Below, in pieces: positions 1,560 to 11,617 of a DNA stretch of 20,719 nucleotides. The stretch lies in the IMG/VR virus record IMGVR_UViG_3300025818_000247, positions 1-20,719 of that record; one strand, 5' to 3'. The position numbers and the translations under genes are program-made. The stretch's first letter is position 1; each line of letters begins with the position of its first letter. The stretch is from a virus. Under the pieces are notes generated by a model. The model saw nothing but the letters and a program-made list of their open reading frames with translations, did not search any database and had not been told where the DNA came from.

Positions 1560-3860
1560 TTACTGGGTTACATGATATTTAATATCATAAACACCAATCC
1601 GATGTTGTGCTGCGTCAGCGCCGTTTGTAACCGACAAGACCAAGGCTGTTGATACTGGGCTGGTTAAATTAGCTCCAAGCGACTGAGTTCCTTTTGAAAC
1701 TCCATTAACAAAAAACTCAACTTCGTTTAATTTGTTAATAACTTTAAGCGAAGTTGCAAGGCCAGCAGATATATTTGTTGACAAATCTAGAACAGTTAGA
1801 GACCCAAAGTTGTCGCACACAATTCCTTTGAGTGCGTTATTATCAATTCTAAATCCAAACGCTCTTGCTGATGGATCAGCCGCAGTAATTTGGTTGGAAA
1901 ACCTAATCCAAGTTTTTCCATTTGCGGTTCCAGAAGCAATGTTGCTAACAATAAATTCAATTTCGCAAACTTTGCCATAGTCATAGGTGGCTTGGCCTAG
2001 ACCAAGACTTGAGGCTATAATTGTTGACGCTATGGCTGTTGAACCTGCTGTTGCGCCAGAGTTGACAATAATTCCAGTGCCCTCACTTGTCACTGATCCT
2101 GTTCCCGTTACAGCAGTTGTCCATATATCAATGGCGCAAGGAACACTTCCAGAGCGTTGCTTTGCTTGGTCAACTAAAAATGTATTTTCATAATGATTGT
2201 AATTATTAAGCGTAGGCTCATAAAAATTGCTTGGAAGGTTGCCAAACGTATTGGTCGAAGAATAAGTAGCACCACCGCCTCCTGCCGGATTAAGGCCCAA
2301 AGCACCCAAATGAATGTCGTTTACAACTGCACTGTTAGCAAATTTTACAAACTTATTTCCAACATTAAGCAAATTAGCTTCCAAAAATACCCCTACAGCA
2401 TATTTCATTCTGATTGGGATGTAATCCTCGGTGCTGGCGGGATTGTTTCCGTTAAAGTAACAGCCAGTAATAGAGACACCAACAACATAGGATGATGCGC
2501 CGATGTAGATGTCGTAGTATTCTCCCGCACCGCCAATGGTTTTATTTTCCTCAAAATAGCAGCCGTTAAAACTTAATCCACCACCAGCAGTATCAATATA
2601 AAGGCCGCCACCGAAGCACGACTCAAACGTTGTCCCTGTAAACGAAATTCCGTTTAAAGCATACGCCCAAATCCCTTGCGCCTTAATGCTTGAAATATAG
2701 CAACCAGCAACTGTGCCTCCGTTCCACCCAGAAAAGGTTGGCACGTCGTTGTATATTCCGTAATAGCAACTACCAATTTGGCAATCAATAACATCTAAGA
2801 CAATGCTGTCTTTTACATAAATGCCGCCGCCGCCAGAACCAGTGTAACCCCAACCTGAAATTATACATCCAATAATTGAGGCTCGGCTGGATTTTACTAC
2901 TTCAATACCCCATCCGGTTGTGTTTGCATTTTGCCCCAAAATTGACAAATCCCTAACGACCGTGTTGTTGGAGCCTGTTAAGGATGGACCTTGCGGCAGC
3001 TTAAGGGCACTGGTGTCTGCGGTAACTTGTCGAATTTTGCTGGCACGCCAGCCAGCCCCGAACAGCGTCATTCTTTCAAGGCTAGTCATATCCAAAGCAC
3101 TACTTATGACATAATCGCCTTCTGGAAAGAAAATAGCTGAGCCTAAAGAAGCGGCGTTTAAACACGCCTGAATAGCCGTTGTGTCATCCGTCACGCCATC
3201 ACCAGTTGCACCAAAGTCTTTGACCGATACAACCTCGCGCAACTTTGCTTGCACGGTAGTTTGCTCCGCGCCGGACCCTGCGGGGTCGTAAAAGATGCTT
3301 GCCGCGTTGTTTCCAGTTGCGTTTACAAACGAAGAAACTGCCGCGTCGAATTGAGCCAAGGTATTTGTTGAGGTGGTAACACCGCCGTCATTTGTGAAAC
3401 CAAGAACCTTGTTTGATCGAGCAGCAGCGGCTGGCAGTACGTTGTCGCCAGTGAAGCTATCGTAAACCGGGAACTTAATCGAGCGATCAACGCGCTCGTC
3501 GATCTGCTGCTCAAAGATAATGTTACTGTCGAGTTGCTCGTTGAGGCTAGATGCAAGCAAGTCACCGGCAGTCACAAAGTCTGTCGTGCGCTCAATGTCT
3601 CTAGCGCCGATAATGATGATCGTGTCACTGGCCGTTGGCGTTGACGGCACGTTGCCGCCAGTGATGATGTTGACGCTGCCAGTGCCGTTGGCGTTAATGG
3701 TTACAGTGTAATCGCTAGAGAGCGTCAGCGCGGTCTGGTTGAAATAGACCCCAACATCAGTTTGGTCGATGATCTCAAACGAGAACGCATATGGCCCTAG
3801 ACCGGCAGAGCCAGTGTAAACCACGCGGCGCGTAATTGCGTTAATGTTATAGTCAGCCAT
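1560..3860 (-). CDS. Tail spike with T7 gp17-type N-terminus and pectate-lyase-like beta-helix
   Basis: This 766-residue protein is the main receptor-binding candidate. Residues 1 to about 150 match the T7 tail-fibre attachment domain: RRVVYTGSAGLGPYAFSFEI near the start, then VYFN, DYTV and IIIIGARDIERTTDF, followed by the conserved stretch around SLNEQLDSNIIFEQQIDERVD. Residues 211-250 (VSVKDFGATGDGVTDDTTAI, then FFPEGDYVI) are the classic start of a pectate-lyase-superfamily right-handed beta-helix. The helix continues to about 520 with repeated short strands and many Gly, Cys and Tyr. Residues 560-766 look like a separate beta-sandwich, possibly carbohydrate-binding (NEVEFFVNGVSKG resembles LamG-type domains). 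Such spikes usually bind or cut host polysaccharide; catalytic residues cannot be assigned by eye. The start has GAGG seven bases before ATG. The 3' portion is AT-rich compared with the N-terminal region. Confidence 0.85.
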   Translation of the reverse strand: MADYNINAITRRVVYTGSAGLGPYAFSFEIIDQTDVGVYFNQTALTLSSDYTVTINANGTGSVNIITGGNVPSTPTASDTIIIIGARDIERTTDFVTAGDLLASSLNEQLDSNIIFEQQIDERVDRSIKFPVYDSFTGDNVLPAAAARSNKVLGFTNDGGVTTSTNTLAQFDAAVSSFVNATGNNAASIFYDPAGSGAEQTTVQAKLREVVSVKDFGATGDGVTDDTTAIQACLNAASLGSAIFFPEGDYVISSALDMTSLERMTLFGAGWRASKIRQVTADTSALKLPQGPSLTGSNNTVVRDLSILGQNANTTGWGIEVVKSSRASIIGCIISGWGYTGSGGGGIYVKDSIVLDVIDCQIGSCYYGIYNDVPTFSGWNGGTVAGCYISSIKAQGIWAYALNGISFTGTTFESCFGGGLYIDTAGGGLSFNGCYFEENKTIGGAGEYYDIYIGASSYVVGVSITGCYFNGNNPASTEDYIPIRMKYAVGVFLEANLLNVGNKFVKFANSAVVNDIHLGALGLNPAGGGGATYSSTNTFGNLPSNFYEPTLNNYNHYENTFLVDQAKQRSGSVPCAIDIWTTAVTGTGSVTSEGTGIIVNSGATAGSTAIASTIIASSLGLGQATYDYGKVCEIEFIVSNIASGTANGKTWIRFSNQITAADPSARAFGFRIDNNALKGIVCDNFGSLTVLDLSTNISAGLATSLKVINKLNEVEFFVNGVSKGTQSLGANLTSPVSTALVLSVTNGADAAQHRIGVYDIKYHVTQ

Positions 3861-3900: not shown

Positions 3901-6900
3901 TTAACGTCCGTATAGATTAGCCTTTTCCTGATTTCTGGCTATCTTTGCGGCAGTATCTGGATACATAATTTCTGCGCCGTCATCTGATTGCATAGTGTAA
4001 TTTACAAGGCCGGTGTCTTTGTCCTTGATAGTCTTGCCAAACATTTTGTTGCGCGCCCTAGCGCGGTAATCAGCGACTACTTGATCTACGTCATTTTGCA
4101 GCGATCCTAGAGGCGGGCTAATGCCCAAAGCCTCTGCATCATTAATGCGATCATTGATTGCTTGCAAAATAGCCTCATCCATTGTCATGCCGGTAACAGG
4201 ATCAGGGTCTTGCTGTAGCTTTAAATACATATCCTGTTGCTCTGCTGGTATGCGCACACCACCTATTGTAAAATTAGGCTCTCCAATGCCGTGGTTTATA
4301 GCTGCCAACATTTCAGAAACCTCGTCACGTTTACCCTTTGCCATAGCCAATGGCATCCAAGAGTAGTCCTTGTCGTACTCAATTGGATTTCCACGCGCGT
4401 CACGCTTTGGCGGGAGCTTGTTTGATTTAGTAGGCACACGGCTCATCACTTTATTGTAAGCCTCAAAGAACGCCCTGATGCCGGGTTGTGTCGCGTCAAC
4501 ACCCAGAACGTCATCAGCCCATTCAACTTGGCTTTGATTAATAGCCGTGTTACTCAATGCAGGATCAAGGATGCGCTCAATTTTTCCAACAATTGCACTG
4601 TTAGCTAAACCAACAATAGGCGTTCCAGCTATGGCTACATTACCAACCTGACGCACATACGCATCAAACATAGCCACGGCCTTGTCGCCAAAGTCTGTCT
4701 GCCTCTGGTTAAGGATGCGCATCAATTCGTTTACTGACTGCATCGCTGGCATATTAGTTGAATATTCAGCAAGCGAGGCCATCATCGCGTCAAACATAAT
4801 CTCAGCCTGAGTATCATCAGGATCATAAGCGCGATATTTCTGGGCGTCTGCAAATGCCGCACCAAGTAATAGCGGGATTGTCACCGGCTCCATTCTCTTT
4901 AGCGACACAAATGTACTGCCCTCAAACGTGCCGGTTCCACGCATTGCCGTGCCAGCGCCCATAATATTATTAAGGCGCGCAATGTTAGCGTCTGACATTT
5001 CTTCGTTGTCAAAACGCATACTAAACTCTTGCCACTTCATGCTCTTGAGGTTATTGCGCTCCTCTGTGTCTGCCGGGCCTGCACCAGTAAGCCGCCCATT
5101 GTGAGCCAGAAAATATGAACCAAGACCCAAGCTGCCACCAACAACCATACGGCTTATAGCAAGGTCACGGTGACGGCCACCTTTTTCCCACTCGCTATAA
5201 AAACGCGGAGACATAAAGTTAAGAACAGGCACACGCGCGGCACCCTCAACGGCTAGATTTGTGACTGACTTACTAAACAACATAATCGGCTTCACCAAAG
5301 GCCAATTCATCATTTTGAGCGCGCCGTGGTATGTCCTACCAAGTGCAGACTGTCTGTCAATGTCTGCCATCAATGTGGCTTGTTTGCGAAACGACTGCAC
5401 ACTAGCCTCTACCTCTGCCGGGCGCTCAGTCAAAAACTTATTAACCGCCTCTTGGGAAGATGCAAGCGCCTCATCTGCTGATGCGCCATCAGCCAATTTC
5501 TTGTCGTAAATGGTAGCACCGTAACGCCACGCCTGCTCGTGCAATTCCATACGTTGCGCAATGCCGCCAAAGAACTGATCACCAGCCCCAAGCGCGCGCA
5601 TAGGTATTGAATAGAGAGAGCCAAGACTATCTAAGACGCGGCCTGCTAATGTGTTCTTTAGCTCTGGTGTGCGCGCCACTTCTTTGCCCAGCATCATAAC
5701 AGGCGTGTTGCTAAAGTAAGCGGATGATATGGGGTTGCGCGGCGCGTCCTTGGTTGCCCCTGTCTTTGCGCCCTTTGCCATCATTGACCAGCCATCCATC
5801 AGGCCATTATAAAAGGCTGACGTTCTGGCATAAATGTCTTGGCCGTAATACTGATCTGGCTTGTATTCCTTGCCAAGAACTTTAGCGAGGCGCTGTCTTA
5901 CCTTGCCAACAGGAATAGCAACGGCGCGCTCTGGCACGTCCATAAACAGCGTCAAGCCGTTTGCTGTAGCGTTAAATATATGCGTTTCCCAGTTAGTCAA
6001 GAATGTAGACTGAGCCGCATAAATCATACTGTCATATGTTTTGCGTAAAAGCCCAACTTCCAATATTTTGTTTTTGGCGGCGCGGTTTTCTTGTTGCAGA
6101 TAATTGTCAGCCAAGGCGCGCAATTGCTGATCACCACCAACGCCATCAAGCACGGCGCGAATATCAAGCGCTGGCAAGTTGCGCTCACGCGCGCCCTTAA
6201 ATACATTCATGCTGCGCGCCACATCGCGCTTTGCGCCTTTTAGTTCTGCCAATACAATTTCATGTTGCGCCAGTGCTTCGCGCAACTCAAACTTGCCGAG
6301 GTCAGTCAAAAGCCCAGATGAGGCCTGCGCCATCAACTCGTCAACCTTCTGCGCGCTAACGTCATGCAACGCTTGCAGCCCTGCAAGCTGCGTGGCTAAT
6401 TGGTTGTTGCCGACCTTGCTTTGCATTGGTATGCCGCGAAACATTGCGTCTAATGTTTTCTTTGGAACACCAGAAGAAAAAGCGCGCTTGTAAAGGCTCT
6501 CAACTGTTTGCGATTGATAGTCAGGCTCGGTATCGCCAGCCACGGCCTTGACTGTGGCAGCGAGGCTGTCACTGTCATAGAAGCGCGTATTCACTGGCCC
6601 AGCTTCAATGCCCTCTGCAACTTGCGCCTTAGTAGGCGATGGCACTTGACGCGCACCGCCCATAGCTTCCTGACGCTCTGCCATAACCTCTTCGACACGC
6701 TCTTCGCTAACTGGTGCCGGTTTCTTGATTGGCGGCACAATTTGCGGCTCAATCTTCTCGACTGGCGGTTCTGGCATTTGAATGTCTGGGTCAACAACGT
6801 CAACCGGCTTTGTTATTTCTTCTGTTACTTTATAGTCAGGGTCAACGCGCGCGCCGCGCTTTGTTAGCGGCTCAAGGATCTGACCGGCAACTTGACGCCC

Positions 6901-7017
6901 TGCTGACCTAGCAAAGCCAGCAGGCTGGATGCCATCATCAGTCAGATCAGGCTCTGCTGTTTGTTTTGAAAGCTGGTCGAGTTCGTCAGCTAAATCTCTT
7001 GGGCCGCGTATTGGCAT
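3901..7017 (-). CDS. Large internal virion (ejection) protein, gp16-like position
   Basis: This is the largest gene, 1038 residues. It is last in the ejection cluster and directly before the spike, the place and approximate size of T7 gp16 (about 1300 residues). Residues 20-140 are disordered, rich in Pro/Glu/Val (PDIQMPEPPVEKIEPQIVPP). The rest is mainly helical with several amphipathic or hydrophobic helices, for example NGLTLFMDVPERAVAIPVG (353-371), MVVGGSLGLGSYFLAHNG (624-641) and VTIPLLLGAAFADA (712-725). Blocks typical of large phage internal proteins are present: LTNWETHIFNATANGL (340-355), GAGDQFFGGIAQRMELHEQA (477-496) and FSKSVTNLAVEGAARVP (581-597). Unlike T7 gp16, I find no lytic transglycosylase domain in it. 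The likely role is to help form the channel that carries DNA across the host envelope. The start has AGGA six bases upstream. Function is inferred from order, size and composition. Confidence 0.65.
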   Translation of the reverse strand: MPIRGPRDLADELDQLSKQTAEPDLTDDGIQPAGFARSAGRQVAGQILEPLTKRGARVDPDYKVTEEITKPVDVVDPDIQMPEPPVEKIEPQIVPPIKKPAPVSEERVEEVMAERQEAMGGARQVPSPTKAQVAEGIEAGPVNTRFYDSDSLAATVKAVAGDTEPDYQSQTVESLYKRAFSSGVPKKTLDAMFRGIPMQSKVGNNQLATQLAGLQALHDVSAQKVDELMAQASSGLLTDLGKFELREALAQHEIVLAELKGAKRDVARSMNVFKGARERNLPALDIRAVLDGVGGDQQLRALADNYLQQENRAAKNKILEVGLLRKTYDSMIYAAQSTFLTNWETHIFNATANGLTLFMDVPERAVAIPVGKVRQRLAKVLGKEYKPDQYYGQDIYARTSAFYNGLMDGWSMMAKGAKTGATKDAPRNPISSAYFSNTPVMMLGKEVARTPELKNTLAGRVLDSLGSLYSIPMRALGAGDQFFGGIAQRMELHEQAWRYGATIYDKKLADGASADEALASSQEAVNKFLTERPAEVEASVQSFRKQATLMADIDRQSALGRTYHGALKMMNWPLVKPIMLFSKSVTNLAVEGAARVPVLNFMSPRFYSEWEKGGRHRDLAISRMVVGGSLGLGSYFLAHNGRLTGAGPADTEERNNLKSMKWQEFSMRFDNEEMSDANIARLNNIMGAGTAMRGTGTFEGSTFVSLKRMEPVTIPLLLGAAFADAQKYRAYDPDDTQAEIMFDAMMASLAEYSTNMPAMQSVNELMRILNQRQTDFGDKAVAMFDAYVRQVGNVAIAGTPIVGLANSAIVGKIERILDPALSNTAINQSQVEWADDVLGVDATQPGIRAFFEAYNKVMSRVPTKSNKLPPKRDARGNPIEYDKDYSWMPLAMAKGKRDEVSEMLAAINHGIGEPNFTIGGVRIPAEQQDMYLKLQQDPDPVTGMTMDEAILQAINDRINDAEALGISPPLGSLQNDVDQVVADYRARARNKMFGKTIKDKDTGLVNYTMQSDDGAEIMYPDTAAKIARNQEKANLYGR

Positions 7018-7027
7018 TATTTATCCT

Positions 7028-7228
7028 TTACTTGCGAAACTGCTCTGGCAGTTCAAGCTCTTCTTCTGCGCTTAACTCTTTTGGAGCTTCGCCAAAATAA
7101 GCAATATCCAAATAGTTTTTTCTATTCAGCGGTATTTTGTACTTGCTCATCAACTGCACCACTGGGTCGCTGCCAAGTTGGGGGGTTGATGCCGCCTGCT
7201 CGTTGCTCAACTGCATTTCTTGCCTCAT
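7028..7228 (-). CDS. Small phage protein, 66 aa, overlapping the end of the 742-aa ejection protein
   Basis: This short frame starts inside the 742-residue gene and runs 94 bases past its stop, so 107 bases are read in two frames. The ATG at 7228 has an AAGGTGAGG ribosome binding site nine bases upstream, which supports this start. The protein is hydrophilic; its second half (MSKYKIPLNRKNYLDIAYFG, residues 27-46, then an acidic LSAEEELELPEQ) looks like a conserved small domain of a type I recall from marine phages. A shorter product beginning at the second candidate ATG (7150) is possible, but no good ribosome binding site precedes it. The stop is 10 bases before the 1038-residue gene. Another explanation is that this frame is the C-terminus of the upstream protein, joined by a +1 frameshift at the C run in 7180-7185. 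Function unknown. Confidence 0.65.
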   Translation of the reverse strand: MRQEMQLSNEQAASTPQLGSDPVVQLMSKYKIPLNRKNYLDIAYFGEAPKELSAEEELELPEQFRK

Positions 7229-9350
7229 CTAAAGTTACCTCACCTTTTCTGTATTTGTACCATATATTGTTAACATCCTCTACATTCTTGGCCTGACCTT
7301 TAAATTTGTCAGTAAACAAACCGCGTACAGCTTCCCAAGTTATAGACTGCATTTCTCTAGGTAATACGCCGCGCTCTGCTGCGGCTCGCCGGTATGCTTC
7401 AGCATACAACCCATAATTTCCTTGAACACCAGTTTTTGCTGAGTTCTTAGTCGCCCCAAGCCAATCAGCGCCCTGCTTTGCTTTTGCTGGACTGCTGCCA
7501 AAATTGTGATGCACCTCTGTAGCTTGACCAGATAATGGCCTCAACAAAGCAGCAGCAACAGCGTGTGTGTCAATCGTTACGTCACCATTTGGCCCATTAG
7601 GGTCAAGGATATTATTATAGAAACTGCGAACCTTGTGCTTTGTTCCCATCAATGGGGTCAAAACATTTTTATCGCCGCCACTTTCAAAAGCAGAAACAGC
7701 TTTAGAAATTTCAACAATTGACCCCCAGCCTGTGCCTTTAGGCTCACCTTTGCCAGTCATAGCTGTGCCGATAAAATCACCTTCTGGTGAAACAATCTGA
7801 TGGCTTCTGTCACCATATGTCTCATCATGCAAACGCAGCCAAATAGCTTTTTCCGCTGGCAACTCAAGCTCAGATAATTTTTTATTTGAAATAGCTTTGA
7901 TTATAGCTTGATCTTGTGGCTTGTTAAACTTTTCCAAACCAGTTTTTAACATTTCTTTAGTAAACACTGTGTCTTGTTGATTGCTCATAATATCAAGCAC
8001 ACGCTCACCAAGGCTCACGTTCATATACCAATCTTTTTGTGGCGATAGCGCTGCAAGCACACCAGCAATAGAACTATCTGGTAAATTGTATTTTTCAGAC
8101 CATCTGTCAGTAATTGCCCTAGCGCCATCATACCATTTTTTAGAACGCTCTCTGGTCTGCTCTGGCACCTTATCAAAGACCCAAAGCAAATTGTTTTTTG
8201 CGTGTTCAATAAATGCTTTACTGGCCTCGGCTGGCGGCAATGCTGCCTCTGCCTCAGTCATATTTGGGTAATTCTTAACAATGCCAACATTATGCTCAAA
8301 CACAACAGGATCAGCCGCAACCTCATCTAGCCCGATTTGCAGTGGCTGCGCAATTGGGTCTTCTGTTGCGCCTTTTGCTGTTGGCAGTCTCGTAGATATT
8401 CTATTTGGGTTTGCCTCTGTTTGAGGCTGCCTAACCAACTTACCAGCCGCAGCCAACGCCGGGTCAATCACTTCCATAGGGTCAGCGCCAGACATAACAC
8501 GATCAGTAATAGGCCCACGCTCTGCCATCCGAGCCTCGGCTGACTGCCCCGCTTGGCTTATCGCCTCACCAACAGCAGGCCCAAACTCACGCGCCAGCAT
8601 CTCGCCGCCTTTAACTAGGCCGCCACCGGCAGCGCCGCCAACAACAGACGTTATAGCTGTACGCAGTGCGCCTGTCACTGGGTCAATGTCGTACCCAGCC
8701 TGCTTCTCAACGGCCTGCGTAAGCTGATCAGCGGCACCCGCCTCAACGCCGGTATATACAGCGGCTGACGCGCCGGGGCGTTTTGCTATCTCAACCAATG
8801 CTCTTTTAATACCCATAGCGCCAGTCTTGCGCGCGGCAAAGCCAAGCCCCAATGTGCCAAAGCCAGTGTAAACGCTAGGGTCGGCGACCATACCGCGTAT
8901 CATTCGCCCAGTGCCAGCTAATGTAAAATTAGGCAATTGATCGTAGCGATCCATAAGATACACAAATGCCTTCGCCTGATCTTGCGAGCCGCTTGTTAAT
9001 AGCGCCGCCGCTTGGCCTATTGTGCCGGGCGAGCTAATGCCACTTTCGCCGGGGATGCCAGCCGGGCCAGCAAAGTTATAATTAAACTCGCCAATAGCGT
9101 CTATTCCGTATCGCGCCGCAGCCTGATCATCACCATCAAAAGGCTCGCCCTCAAACAGCAAATGAATGTCGCGCGCAGACGCTGCAAACTTTGGATCAAG
9201 CAGCAATTGCTTTTCAGTCACCTCTGGCGCTTTTGGCTGCACAGGGTCTGGCGGCGTATCCATTGATGGTATTTGCAACACAGGCGGCGTGTCCACTATA
9301 ACACTGGCCGCAAACTTGTCCTCATACGCTTGTGCAAAATCATCGGTCAT
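7122..9350 (-). CDS. Internal virion (ejection) protein with a large C-terminal conserved domain
   Basis: This 742-residue protein lies between the gp15-like and gp16-like genes. Its start overlaps the previous stop as ATGA, so translation is coupled. Residues 45-180 resemble the N-terminal region common in ejection proteins of marine podoviruses (ARYGIDAIGEFNYNFAG at 79-95, KAFVYLMDRYDQLPNF at 127-142, then DPSVYTGFGTLGLGFAAR). Residues 160-260 hold Gly/Ala-rich, possibly membrane-inserting helices (TSVVGGAAGGGLVKGG at 234-249). From about 345 the character changes: a conserved domain with IAGVLAALSPQKDWYMNVSL (428-447), VTIDTHAVAAALLRPLSG (591-608), EVHHNFG (612-618) and NYGLYAEAYRRAAAERG (645-661). 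I recall this domain from phages and mobile elements as a domain of unknown function; its conserved Asp and His residues suggest an enzyme, but I cannot name an activity. GC content differs strongly between the halves. Confidence 0.65.
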   Translation of the reverse strand: MTDDFAQAYEDKFAASVIVDTPPVLQIPSMDTPPDPVQPKAPEVTEKQLLLDPKFAASARDIHLLFEGEPFDGDDQAAARYGIDAIGEFNYNFAGPAGIPGESGISSPGTIGQAAALLTSGSQDQAKAFVYLMDRYDQLPNFTLAGTGRMIRGMVADPSVYTGFGTLGLGFAARKTGAMGIKRALVEIAKRPGASAAVYTGVEAGAADQLTQAVEKQAGYDIDPVTGALRTAITSVVGGAAGGGLVKGGEMLAREFGPAVGEAISQAGQSAEARMAERGPITDRVMSGADPMEVIDPALAAAGKLVRQPQTEANPNRISTRLPTAKGATEDPIAQPLQIGLDEVAADPVVFEHNVGIVKNYPNMTEAEAALPPAEASKAFIEHAKNNLLWVFDKVPEQTRERSKKWYDGARAITDRWSEKYNLPDSSIAGVLAALSPQKDWYMNVSLGERVLDIMSNQQDTVFTKEMLKTGLEKFNKPQDQAIIKAISNKKLSELELPAEKAIWLRLHDETYGDRSHQIVSPEGDFIGTAMTGKGEPKGTGWGSIVEISKAVSAFESGGDKNVLTPLMGTKHKVRSFYNNILDPNGPNGDVTIDTHAVAAALLRPLSGQATEVHHNFGSSPAKAKQGADWLGATKNSAKTGVQGNYGLYAEAYRRAAAERGVLPREMQSITWEAVRGLFTDKFKGQAKNVEDVNNIWYKYRKGEVTLDEARNAVEQRAGGINPPTWQRPSGAVDEQVQNTAE
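7238..7246 (-). promoter_or_regulatory. Ribosome binding site for the overlapping 66-aa gene
   Basis: On the minus strand this reads AAGGTGAGG, a double Shine-Dalgarno-like motif ending nine bases before the ATG at 7228. It lies inside the coding region of the 742-residue protein. It is the main evidence that the 66-residue frame is initiated independently and for choosing the first ATG rather than the one at 7150. Confidence 0.55.
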
Positions 9351-11113
9351 CGTAACAGCGCGTCCCTTCTTTCCTTTGCCCTTTTAACGGCTACCAATTG
9401 TCCTCGCGCTTTGTTTACATAATCCGCAAGTTTGTTGCCAGAATGACCCGCCGCTATTAACGCATCTTCTATTTCTTCAATAGTGGTATTCTCTGTAATT
9501 TCTATATTAATTTGTACTTCTGTTGCCTCCTCACCAATAAACCGCCTCTCAAGGTTAGCTAATGCTCTTTGAAGTTCTTTTTCCTCATCACTGCGGCGAA
9601 TTTCAAGATCAATTTCTTTAGCCACACTCAAGCGCGTTGGCTTAATACCAGCGCTGCCACTAGCTTCCCACTCCGTTATTTTGCCCTGATACCTTGCCGA
9701 TAACTCCCTATCAAAAACAAAATATGCCTTTGATTGTTCTTCGCTTGGAATGGTTCCTTGCACAATTTTAACATTCCGGCTAATTATGCGATTAATCTCC
9801 GTTTCTTCCCCTTTTATGTCTGTTACTAAAAAAGGATAAATAGAGTAATAATCTTTTGGCCCCACGCCTAAATTGATGGCCTGCTTTTCTAAATCATCTG
9901 GGGTTTGTATTTCGCCCGACATAATTCTGCGCTTCAATTCAAACATACCAGCATAATTTGGTTTATCAACTTTCGTTGGGTCAAGCGCATTATCTAGCGA
10001 TGTAATTGACGACTGGGTTACAGCCTCTGGATACAAAATCGCGAGCGCCTGTAGCTGGTCAATTTGGCTATTATATTGCTCGCCGCGATATGGCAGATCA
10101 GCCATAGTGGTTTGTATGCGCTGCACTTCTTTTTTGGCGTTTTCAATGCCTACATTCCGCACAACCTTTTCATCATTTATCTTTGCGTCTCTGCGGCTTC
10201 TAACGCCCTCACGCACTTTGGCTTTGCCAGCATCATCAAGCCTTGAATAAAGGCTCGTAAATCTGTCACCAAAGTCGCCCTTCAATGCGCGCCCAATATT
10301 TTGATCTGACTGCGTAGCCCAATCAACAAGGACGCCCTGCATTTGCTCTTCTACAACATCTCTAATTGCCGCCCCACTGGTCTCAATAAATGAGGCATCG
10401 CCAGTGTCAATAATTGCGTCATTAGCAATTCTTAAACGCGCCTCAATCTCACCCTGCGTTTGCTTCATGTCGCCGGAATGATTTAAGAAAATTGTCTTTA
10501 TGTCATTAGGTAGAATGTCTAGGTTAGCGTTTGCAGTGTCTTTTCTAAAACCCTGCATAATTTTATAAGAATGTTCTAGGCCAGATTTGTAAGCCGTTGA
10601 CGCAAGCGCATTTGCAGTAGCCTCATAGGCTAGTGCTTTTTGTGGATCAACTTGCGCAATGACGTTTGTATGACCATTGATCAATCCAGTTAAATCAGTC
10701 TGCATTTTGGCAACATCAAAGTCTGGGTCGCCACTTTCTATTTGCGCATTATATTTTGCCAACACCCCTGTTAGCTGCGTCTCAAGCGATGTTTTTAACT
10801 GCGCCGCCGCTGTTGCAGTAGTAACCGCGCCAAACACAGTATCAGGATCACCAACAATTTCGCTTACATCTCTGCCCTCAGACAAAGCATCTTTGATTTG
10901 ATCTGGCGTGACAGGGTTTTCAAAAGCATACTTTAATGCTTGGCGTTGCGTCTTAGCTACTTGCTCTTTGTAAAAATAGTCGGCCATTGTGTCTAAGCCG
11001 CGTGCCACCTCATTATAGGCACTGGCCTTTGCGCGACCAGCCGCCGCAAAGTCAACGCCGGGCAATGGCTGTATCGTTACGCCTAATGGGCGGTATTTTG
11101 GTAACTCAGCCAT
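9347..11113 (-). CDS. Internal virion (ejection) protein, gp15-like position
   Basis: This 588-residue protein follows the gp14-like gene immediately (TAA directly followed by ATG). It is hydrophilic and predicted largely helical, with many Gln, Lys and Glu and no membrane segment or signal peptide. The N-terminus (YRPLGVTIQPLPGVDFAAAG, residues 7-26) is a pattern I recall from ejection proteins of marine short-tailed phages: a short Pro-containing lead followed by long helices such as YNEVARGLDTMADYFYKEQV. The C-terminus is highly charged (KELQRALANLERRF; VAVKRAKERRDALLR). T7 gp15 is longer (747 residues) but occupies the same place and is also a helical internal core protein ejected with the DNA. 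The assignment rests on gene order, size and helical character; no enzymatic motif is visible. Confidence 0.6.
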   Translation of the reverse strand: MAELPKYRPLGVTIQPLPGVDFAAAGRAKASAYNEVARGLDTMADYFYKEQVAKTQRQALKYAFENPVTPDQIKDALSEGRDVSEIVGDPDTVFGAVTTATAAAQLKTSLETQLTGVLAKYNAQIESGDPDFDVAKMQTDLTGLINGHTNVIAQVDPQKALAYEATANALASTAYKSGLEHSYKIMQGFRKDTANANLDILPNDIKTIFLNHSGDMKQTQGEIEARLRIANDAIIDTGDASFIETSGAAIRDVVEEQMQGVLVDWATQSDQNIGRALKGDFGDRFTSLYSRLDDAGKAKVREGVRSRRDAKINDEKVVRNVGIENAKKEVQRIQTTMADLPYRGEQYNSQIDQLQALAILYPEAVTQSSITSLDNALDPTKVDKPNYAGMFELKRRIMSGEIQTPDDLEKQAINLGVGPKDYYSIYPFLVTDIKGEETEINRIISRNVKIVQGTIPSEEQSKAYFVFDRELSARYQGKITEWEASGSAGIKPTRLSVAKEIDLEIRRSDEEKELQRALANLERRFIGEEATEVQINIEITENTTIEEIEDALIAAGHSGNKLADYVNKARGQLVAVKRAKERRDALLR

Positions 11114-11617
11114 TTATCCAGTCCCCATTTCTGTGCCGGGATAATCGCCTTGAACGCCAGAACTGCCACCGCTTGGCCCCCCTAGTTTAGCCTGCCCAGC
11201 ACTAAAGCTCGCCACTTGAGTAAACGCCCTTGCGCGAGCAGCAGACATTGCGGCCTTAGCTTGTGTCATGCTAACACCGGCTCGCATCTCGCCAGTTCTA
11301 AGCGCGATGATGCCGCTTTCTTGCGTCGTGTAAAGTTCCTGCGCACCCTTTGCCATAGCATATTGATTAAGAGCCTTGGCACTACCGCTAAATGGATCAA
11401 TGCCACCAGCCGCCGCCCTAGCAGTGATTGATGCTTGAGTGCGCAGAATGTTATCAAGGACGGCAACGCCCTGCTCTTTATACCTTAACTCCTCAGTCTT
11501 GGCTTGCATCCGCTGCATTGTAGCCTGCGCCGCGTACCCCCTCGCCTCGGCCTTACCGGCCTGCAAGGTTGTGACGACTGAACCAGCAAGTAAAATATAT
11601 GGGATCGCCTGTGCCAT
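11114..11617 (-). CDS. Internal virion protein, gp14-like position
   Basis: This 167-residue protein is encoded between tail tubular protein B and the 588-residue ejection protein, exactly where T7 carries gp14 (196 residues). It begins with a hydrophobic segment (AIPYILLAGSVVTTLQAGKA, residues 4-23), followed by long alanine-rich amphipathic helices (ARGYAAQATMQRMQAKTEEL) and a Gly/Ser-rich C-terminus (LGGPSGGSSG). The pattern of one hydrophobic N-terminal helix plus an Ala/Gln/Met-rich helical body and the motif ARAAAGGIDPFSGSA (67-81) are typical of gp14-type proteins, which insert into the outer membrane during DNA ejection. The start lies one base after the preceding stop. Membrane insertion is inferred from the family role, not shown here. 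Confidence 0.65.
   Translation of the reverse strand: MAQAIPYILLAGSVVTTLQAGKAEARGYAAQATMQRMQAKTEELRYKEQGVAVLDNILRTQASITARAAAGGIDPFSGSAKALNQYAMAKGAQELYTTQESGIIALRTGEMRAGVSMTQAKAAMSAARARAFTQVASFSAGQAKLGGPSGGSSGVQGDYPGTEMGTG

Follow-up and report, generated by a model that had tools for sequence, protein, structure and literature searches.

An exchangeable DUF7178 domain with a predicted DNA glycosylase fold on a phage ejection-type protein

Introduction

Phages and conjugative elements encode polyvalent proteins, in which several domains of disparate activity are joined in one polypeptide and for which delivery together with the DNA is a proposed theme (Iyer et al. 2017, PMC5512222). The text of that paper contains no glycosylase domain (PMC5512222). 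The DNA glycosylases of the HhH-GPD superfamily provide a second point of comparison. In Pab-AGOG, K142 and D174 are catalytic, and the base lies stacked between F146 and W212, with K149 and D208 touching its edge; in OGG1, K249 and D268 give a Lys-Asp spacing of 19 (PMC9638937). The gp46 protein (PUGT) of phage PaMx11 is a phage protein with an HhH-glycosylase fold, encoded by a stand-alone gene beside other enzyme genes. Polyvalent cargo and the HhH-GPD fold are therefore already known as general kinds. Tip exchange in polymorphic toxin systems resembles the cargo exchange described below, which takes place at one fixed junction and in which the carrier is a phage ejection protein. A literature search returned no paper naming the Pfam family DUF7178, and the literature on injected glycosylases yielded nothing relevant.

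Genomic context of the gene

The window analysed here is the whole of a viral DNA stretch of 20,719 nucleotides (IMG/VR record IMGVR_UViG_3300025818_000247, positions 1 to 20,719). As in its preliminary description, the gene of interest, which encodes a marine phage protein, is a clean ORF of 742 aa on the minus strand (Table 1). It lies in a same-strand cluster comprising tail tubular genes (phrog_394 and phrog_376), a gp14-like gene, a gp15-like gene, the 742-aa gene, a 66-aa ORF (orf66), a gp16-like gene and a tailspike gene, and its position between the gp15-like and gp16-like genes makes it a member of a T7-type cluster. The locus resembles that of phage LUZ100 in gene order, and residues 51-219 of the N-terminal part (N-part) share 34% identity with the N-terminus of LUZ100 gp47 ("internal virion D"; E 4e-23 in direct comparison, 2e-17 in a search of a phage collection). 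As gp47 is annotated as similar to T7 gp16, the N-part falls by similarity into the gp16 group. The rest of gp47 is unmatched, whereas the window has DUF7178 there and a separate gp16-like gene after it. Neither the 742-aa protein nor its gp16-like neighbour has a Pfam match to the transglycosylase domain of T7 gp16. From gene position and T7 biology we infer that the 742-aa protein is probably packed in the virion and would be ejected from it, and delivery of the cargo protein into the cell is likely.

Table 1. Coordinates of the 742-aa gene, its parts, its predicted active-site residues and its neighbours in the window
Feature	Position	Strand	Evidence
gp16-like internal virion protein, downstream neighbour	3901..7017	-	phrog_6651 E 1.2e-16; relative of MEP301 gp23
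orf66, 66 aa, +1 frame over the end of the cargo domain	7028..7228	-	Ribosome-site-like GAGG before ATG; homologues behind v1
Gene for ejection-type N-part plus DUF7178 cargo	7122..9350	-	ORF, 742 aa; Pfam PF23802 E 3.2e-27; relatives
C-part, residues 308-742, DUF7178 version 1	7125..8429	-	AlphaFold pLDDT 92.1; structural matches; Pfam
W672 of QSITW, predicted base-stacking	7335..7337	-	Counterpart of Pab-AGOG W212; invariant in v1 and v2
D594 of VTIDTHA, predicted catalytic aspartate	7569..7571	-	Counterpart of Pab-AGOG D174; invariant in v1 and v2
F577, predicted base-stacking	7620..7622	-	Counterpart of Pab-AGOG F146; invariant in v1 and v2
K573, predicted catalytic lysine	7632..7634	-	Counterpart of Pab-AGOG K142; invariant in 28 v1
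Linker, about residues 267-307, crossover zone	8430..8552	-	L005 homology begins at residue 267
N-part, residues 1-307, conserved ejection-type	8430..9350	-	88-94% in L011-L014, with other C-part
gp15-like ejection protein, upstream neighbour	9347..11113	-	Order as in LUZ100; relative of MEP301 gp26
gp14-like internal virion protein	11114..11617	-	phrog_418 E 9.9e-6

The nearest isolate by capsid is Methylophilales phage MEP301 (68.5%), in which the slot between the gp15-like and gp16-like genes holds a 161-aa protein with no recognisable cargo domain. MEP301 gp25 was considered as a bare N-part but is not counted as one here: it has the same slot and a similar character, but no significant sequence match to the N-parts. 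In MEP301 the annotation divides the gp16-like protein between two overlapping ORFs, gp23 and gp24 (464 and 586 aa; L218:14031-17130), which match successive parts of single ORFs in relatives; this split is a frameshift or a sequencing error.

Two parts with separate histories

The gene consists of two separately inherited parts joined at residues 307/308. Both parts are present together in the viral contigs L002-L004. In L011-L014, residues 1-307 are found at 88-94% identity and are fused to a different C-part, and in L006 and L007 the window's C-part recurs at 97%, preceded by an N-part that is unrelated. L005 combines the C-part, at 99%, with an N-part at 39%, and in L031 the same N-part, at 71%, is joined to a third C-part. 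At the nucleotide level, homology to L011 and L013 extends from the upstream genes to nt 920 of the gene (codon 307/308), stops there and picks up again at nt 2323. Proteins with different N-parts have in common a linker of roughly 40 residues that ends at the junction. Because each part occurs without the other, the C-part can be described as exchangeable cargo on a conserved N-part.

The proposal, made earlier from the DNA letters, that an ejection-type N-part is fused to an unrelated domain is thereby borne out. Relatives do not always carry both parts (L006/L007, L011-L014), and the second part also turns up without this N-part (L006/L007). The junction had been placed close to residues 340-390; it lies instead at 307/308, where homology to relatives stops or starts. 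Thus the fusion with an enzyme-like domain stands, while the junction position and the use of a GC step as the sign of fusion do not.

The third C-part (L031:6230-6904) has only a weak, sub-threshold match to Nuc_deoxyrib_tr, and its ORF runs off the contig. An extra module of ~130 aa (PLTKENLEKADEVTKLLVSKIL...FDN.IDKIV) lies between the N-part and DUF7178 in L010, L013 and L006; it has no Pfam match and occurs before version 1 as well as version 2 of the domain.

The GC step itself is real. GC content is 59.2% at 8401-8760 (213/360), as had been counted, and 37.2% at 7861-8220 (134/360), which agrees with the earlier figure of about 37%, its count of 135 being one base too high. The motifs cited with it (VTIDTHAVAAALLRPLSG, EVHHNFG and SPQKDW) are all found in the 742-aa protein. 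For third codon positions (GC3), the best single split falls at codon 308, with 0.51 before and 0.35 after it, and the step is more than chance, since its log-likelihood gain of 9.2 exceeds the maximum of 5.2 among 50 permutations. By itself it nevertheless does not show fusion, for the C-part is lower in both GC and GC3 in all 11 homologues compared, including the divergent version 2 and AT-rich phages. Being present in every one of these homologues, the step dates no transfer; it is a standing property of the parts, and its use as evidence of recent transfer is ruled out. Such steps are also not unique, since the window's tailspike gene (1560-3860, minus strand) has a larger one, with GC3 falling from 0.60 to 0.36 at codon 215. 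The tailspike step sits at the boundary between a conserved N-terminal part and a beta-helix part and is probably the result of receptor-binding exchange.

The same uniformity among the 11 homologues is what would be expected of an ordinary gene with a single history, in which the changes in GC and protein character are due to amino-acid composition only. That reading deserves virtually no credence, given that either part can be found at high identity in the absence of the other and that nucleotide homology breaks at codon 308; L006/L007 and L011-L014 already refute it.

Distribution of DUF7178

The C-part, taken in the preliminary description for an uncharacterised domain, does belong to a Pfam family of unknown function, DUF7178 (PF23802; phrog_3842), with a score of 96.1 bits that is well above the curated cut-off of 27. 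The Pfam model has 193 positions and the window's C-part has insertions, so that the match falls into three separate stretches (7980-8213, 7533-7709 and 7320-7445). In the window the domain is fused to an ejection-type N-part. Two versions of the domain are distinguished here: version 1 (v1) is that of the window, and version 2 (v2) is the divergent second version found as the C-part of L011-L014 (Pfam DUF7178, E 1.6e-8). PF23802 is matched by all 28 v1 and all 25 v2 relatives.

DUF7178 was not found in 14 well-known control genomes. It also occurs in phage records and inside phage proteins of 1,600-3,800 aa, where its partners are ART-PolyVal, C5 or SAM methylase, InPase, Glucosaminidase, Zeta toxin and LPD38 domains. 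These giants share the type of domain set of the polyvalent proteins (PMC5512222), and four relatives (L035, L060, L061 and L151) combine several domains of disparate activity in one polypeptide. The window protein has one recognisable domain plus the N-part; it is a small two-part form built on a gp16-group ejection protein.

Among the bacterial genomes searched there was one relative, in a MAG contig. The conjugative Bradyrhizobium plasmid pCC829_1 carries a 101-aa fragment of the C-terminal DUF7178 region at 45-47% identity (L148:6013-6318), with a TIR-domain gene and the remnant of a phage terminase nearby. In the roseophage isolate CRP-738, v1 is found in a "hypothetical" protein just after the portal gene (L145:11002-13509), and v2 is similarly found in "hypothetical" proteins just after the portal gene in isolates CRP-212 (L146:10240-13851) and CRP-3. 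These three isolates are suited to testing the cargo idea. Roseophage CRP-901 has a distant v2-like match (L219:2776-4146), and in L144 (860-3816) the v2 domain is split across two overlapping ORFs of 593 and 392 aa.

Predicted fold and active site

AlphaFold models of v1 (28 sequences) and v2 (25 sequences) reached pLDDT values of 92.1 and 84.8, respectively. Foldseek searches of the two models against the PDB gave nothing significant, with no match under E 0.29, and the evidence for the fold is a second look with VIA-align 2, a method whose Z values below about 13 may carry little meaning, and can arise by chance, when a fold is helical. For v1, ranks 1-12 are all members of the HhH-GPD superfamily (Z 7.8-3.9), with unrelated folds from 3.2. 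The best match is AGOG (1xqo; Z 7.8, 201 residues, 5.0 A), followed by EndoIII-3 (6.9), OGG1 (6.0), MUTYH (5.8) and PUGT (3.9). For v2, the superfamily fills ranks 1-11 (Z 10.2-4.6) ahead of a first unrelated row at 4.1, and the best match is MjaOGG2 (3knt; Z 10.2, 176 residues, 3.5 A), with TmOGG at 9.8 and AGOG at 7.1. The two versions are mutually related and so are not fully independent tests of the fold.

Profile methods gave no comparable signal. No v1 or v2 member matches Pfam HhH-GPD (PF00730) at E up to 10, and hhalign of the v1 profile against Nth, MutY and AGOG gave nothing significant, pairing only the QSITW helix unaided. When segment HMMs were compared with AGOG and with shuffles, the C-terminal segment scored weakly above chance (0.3-5% of shuffles reach its score), while the hairpin segment and the whole core did not. 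PDB sequence searches with the v1 and v2 profiles gave nothing useful, and a search for phage EndoIII homologues from which to build a profile found none. Because the PF00730 and hhalign matches are absent, the claim made here is one of fold and not of membership in the Pfam HhH-GPD family. Confidence is raised by the fact that one superfamily tops the lists for both versions and that the active site fits; DUF7178 very probably has the HhH-GPD DNA glycosylase fold.

Residue counterparts in AGOG were assigned by motif, spacing and secondary structure rather than by superposition, with a Pa-AGOG comparison sequence that agrees with PDB 1xqo. Invariant residues in v1 are K573, F577 (K+4, the AGOG spacing), N580 (K+7), D594, Q668 and W672 (Q+4), and those in v2 are K147, F151, N154, D165, Q257 and W261. 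The Lys-Asp spacing is 21 in 73/73 v1 domains and 18 in 61/61 v2 domains. In the v1 model, K573 starts the second hairpin helix and D594 stands immediately before a helix, so the prediction has both the catalytic aspartate after the hairpin and the lysine of bifunctional members. The W672 segment was paired with AGOG by unaided hhalign and hmmsearch, a pairing that is not significant alone. Together, these observations strongly indicate that K573, F577, D594 and W672 are active-site residues, and the earlier impression of an enzyme-like domain gains substance from a predicted fold in which a known catalytic Lys/Asp pair has conserved counterparts.

The nearest HhH-GPD glycosylases, AGOG (1xqo) and OGG2 (3knt), resemble the window domain in its predicted fold, in the lysine of the hairpin, in the aspartate before the next helix and in the Phe/Trp pair for base stacking. 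They differ from it in that the window domain lacks profile similarity to them, is phage-borne and is attached to a delivery part, and in that the AGOG edge residues K149 and D208 are replaced by N580 and Q668 in v1 and by N154 and Q257 in v2. Since these base-edge residues differ, the domain is not called AGOG.

HhH motifs are common DNA-binding elements, and a fold that only binds DNA, holding or leading the genome during packaging or ejection, would suit a protein placed among internal virion proteins; some phages of the same kind, such as MEP301, have no recognisable domain in the slot. Such a non-catalytic role is unlikely, as neither version varies at the pocket residues K, F, D, Q and W although overall identity between the two is low, which suggests chemistry. 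It is somewhat probable that the cargo acts enzymatically on DNA bases. The chemistry could in principle be that of a base-modifying transferase like PUGT, in which an HhH fold attaches a group to the bases of DNA: both structural lists include PUGT (Z 3.9), and its sequence, read by eye, has Lys and Asp similarly placed. That match is weak, however, with PUGT scoring below the repair glycosylases and lowest within the superfamily; neither the window, which is a fragment, nor MEP301 has hypermodification genes, and such enzymes act during phage DNA synthesis and not at entry, all of which makes a transferase very improbable.

A conserved overlapping ORF

The preliminary reading of the gene did not include orf66, whose start lies within the final stretch of the v1 coding sequence, preceded by a GAGG-type ribosome site. 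Homologues of 60-85 aa occur in the +1 frame in L025, L033-L082 and L151 and share the pattern DP...IP(V/L)TRENYL.LAY...E.LP. They follow v1 in host proteins of ~620-1,175 aa and are nested inside the giant hosts. A giant-type copy used as query retrieved 28 loci, many of them on contigs already in the comparison. In pairwise comparisons of the giants (98 pairs, 26 sequences), the host frame has a synonymous codon identity of 0.95-1.00 where it overlaps codons 5-50 of the nested ORF, against mostly 0.55-0.77 in the flanking sequence. Under such strong synonymous constraint the ORF has the behaviour of a genuine second gene. Most copies encode an acidic product, and orf66 has no match in the phage collection or in PHROGs.

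No copy was found at any v2 locus, and the block replaced in L011/L013 relative to the window (7028-8429) comprises v1 and orf66 together. A copy was not detectable at a minority of v1 loci (L044, L048, L049, L063, L064, L080, L145 and L150). Judged by these comparisons, orf66 is a v1-specific partner, and its product is perhaps an inhibitor, a chaperone or a cofactor.

Proposed mechanism

The virion presence, delivery, catalysis, target and partner role that we infer can be put together as follows. Residues 1-307 would serve virion assembly and entry, and residues 308-742 would be exchangeable cargo on an ejection protein of the T7 gp16 group, ejected with the core proteins and entering the host along with the DNA. 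The cargo would bind DNA through its hairpin and flip a base between F577 and W672, whereupon K573 and D594 would displace the flipped base and nick the backbone in the manner of a glycosylase/AP lyase, before phage genes are expressed. Host or defence-related DNA would be the target, and orf66 would encode a dedicated partner of the cargo. A delivered glycosylase/AP-lyase-like cargo with a small partner has, as a whole explanation, about an even chance of being right.

The same chemistry could serve a delivered repair enzyme that clears the incoming phage genome of damaged bases, for example oxidised purines, before it is transcribed. The closest folds are 8-oxoguanine glycosylases, many relatives come from marine phages, and a repair glycosylase of a different type, endonuclease V, has been described in a roseophage (PMC11288001). 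Repair is nonetheless rather unlikely: the residues predicted to contact the base differ from those of AGOG (N580 and Q668 for K149 and D208), a nicked incoming genome would require immediate host repair, and the exchange of versions and the toxin-like domain company fit conflict better. On account of that company and of exchangeability, a role in conflict seems the somewhat likelier purpose of the cargo.

Further still, v1 and orf66 might form a virion-delivered effector/partner pair, with a glycosylase/lyase carried on interchangeable delivery proteins and a +1-frame ORF, lying across the end of that gene, for its inhibitor (or activator), a suggestion that should be regarded as doubtful.

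Implications

Within these searches, four things appear to be new: the fold, the active site, the swapping of cargo at one constant junction, and the partner ORF that overlaps the cargo. The comparisons suggest that phages exchange cargo that acts on DNA while the delivery part stays the same. If the explanation is right, an unnamed domain family that is spread over T7-like, HMO-2011-type and giant-protein phages would acquire a fold and an active site as well as a chemistry open to test, and the polyvalent-protein theme would gain an injected cargo that acts on DNA bases. The partner ORF, conserved in a second frame, offers a direct experimental handle on the cargo. Should the two form an effector/partner pair, the overlap would keep the cargo and its control element inseparable during exchange between phages, even when nested in giant proteins.
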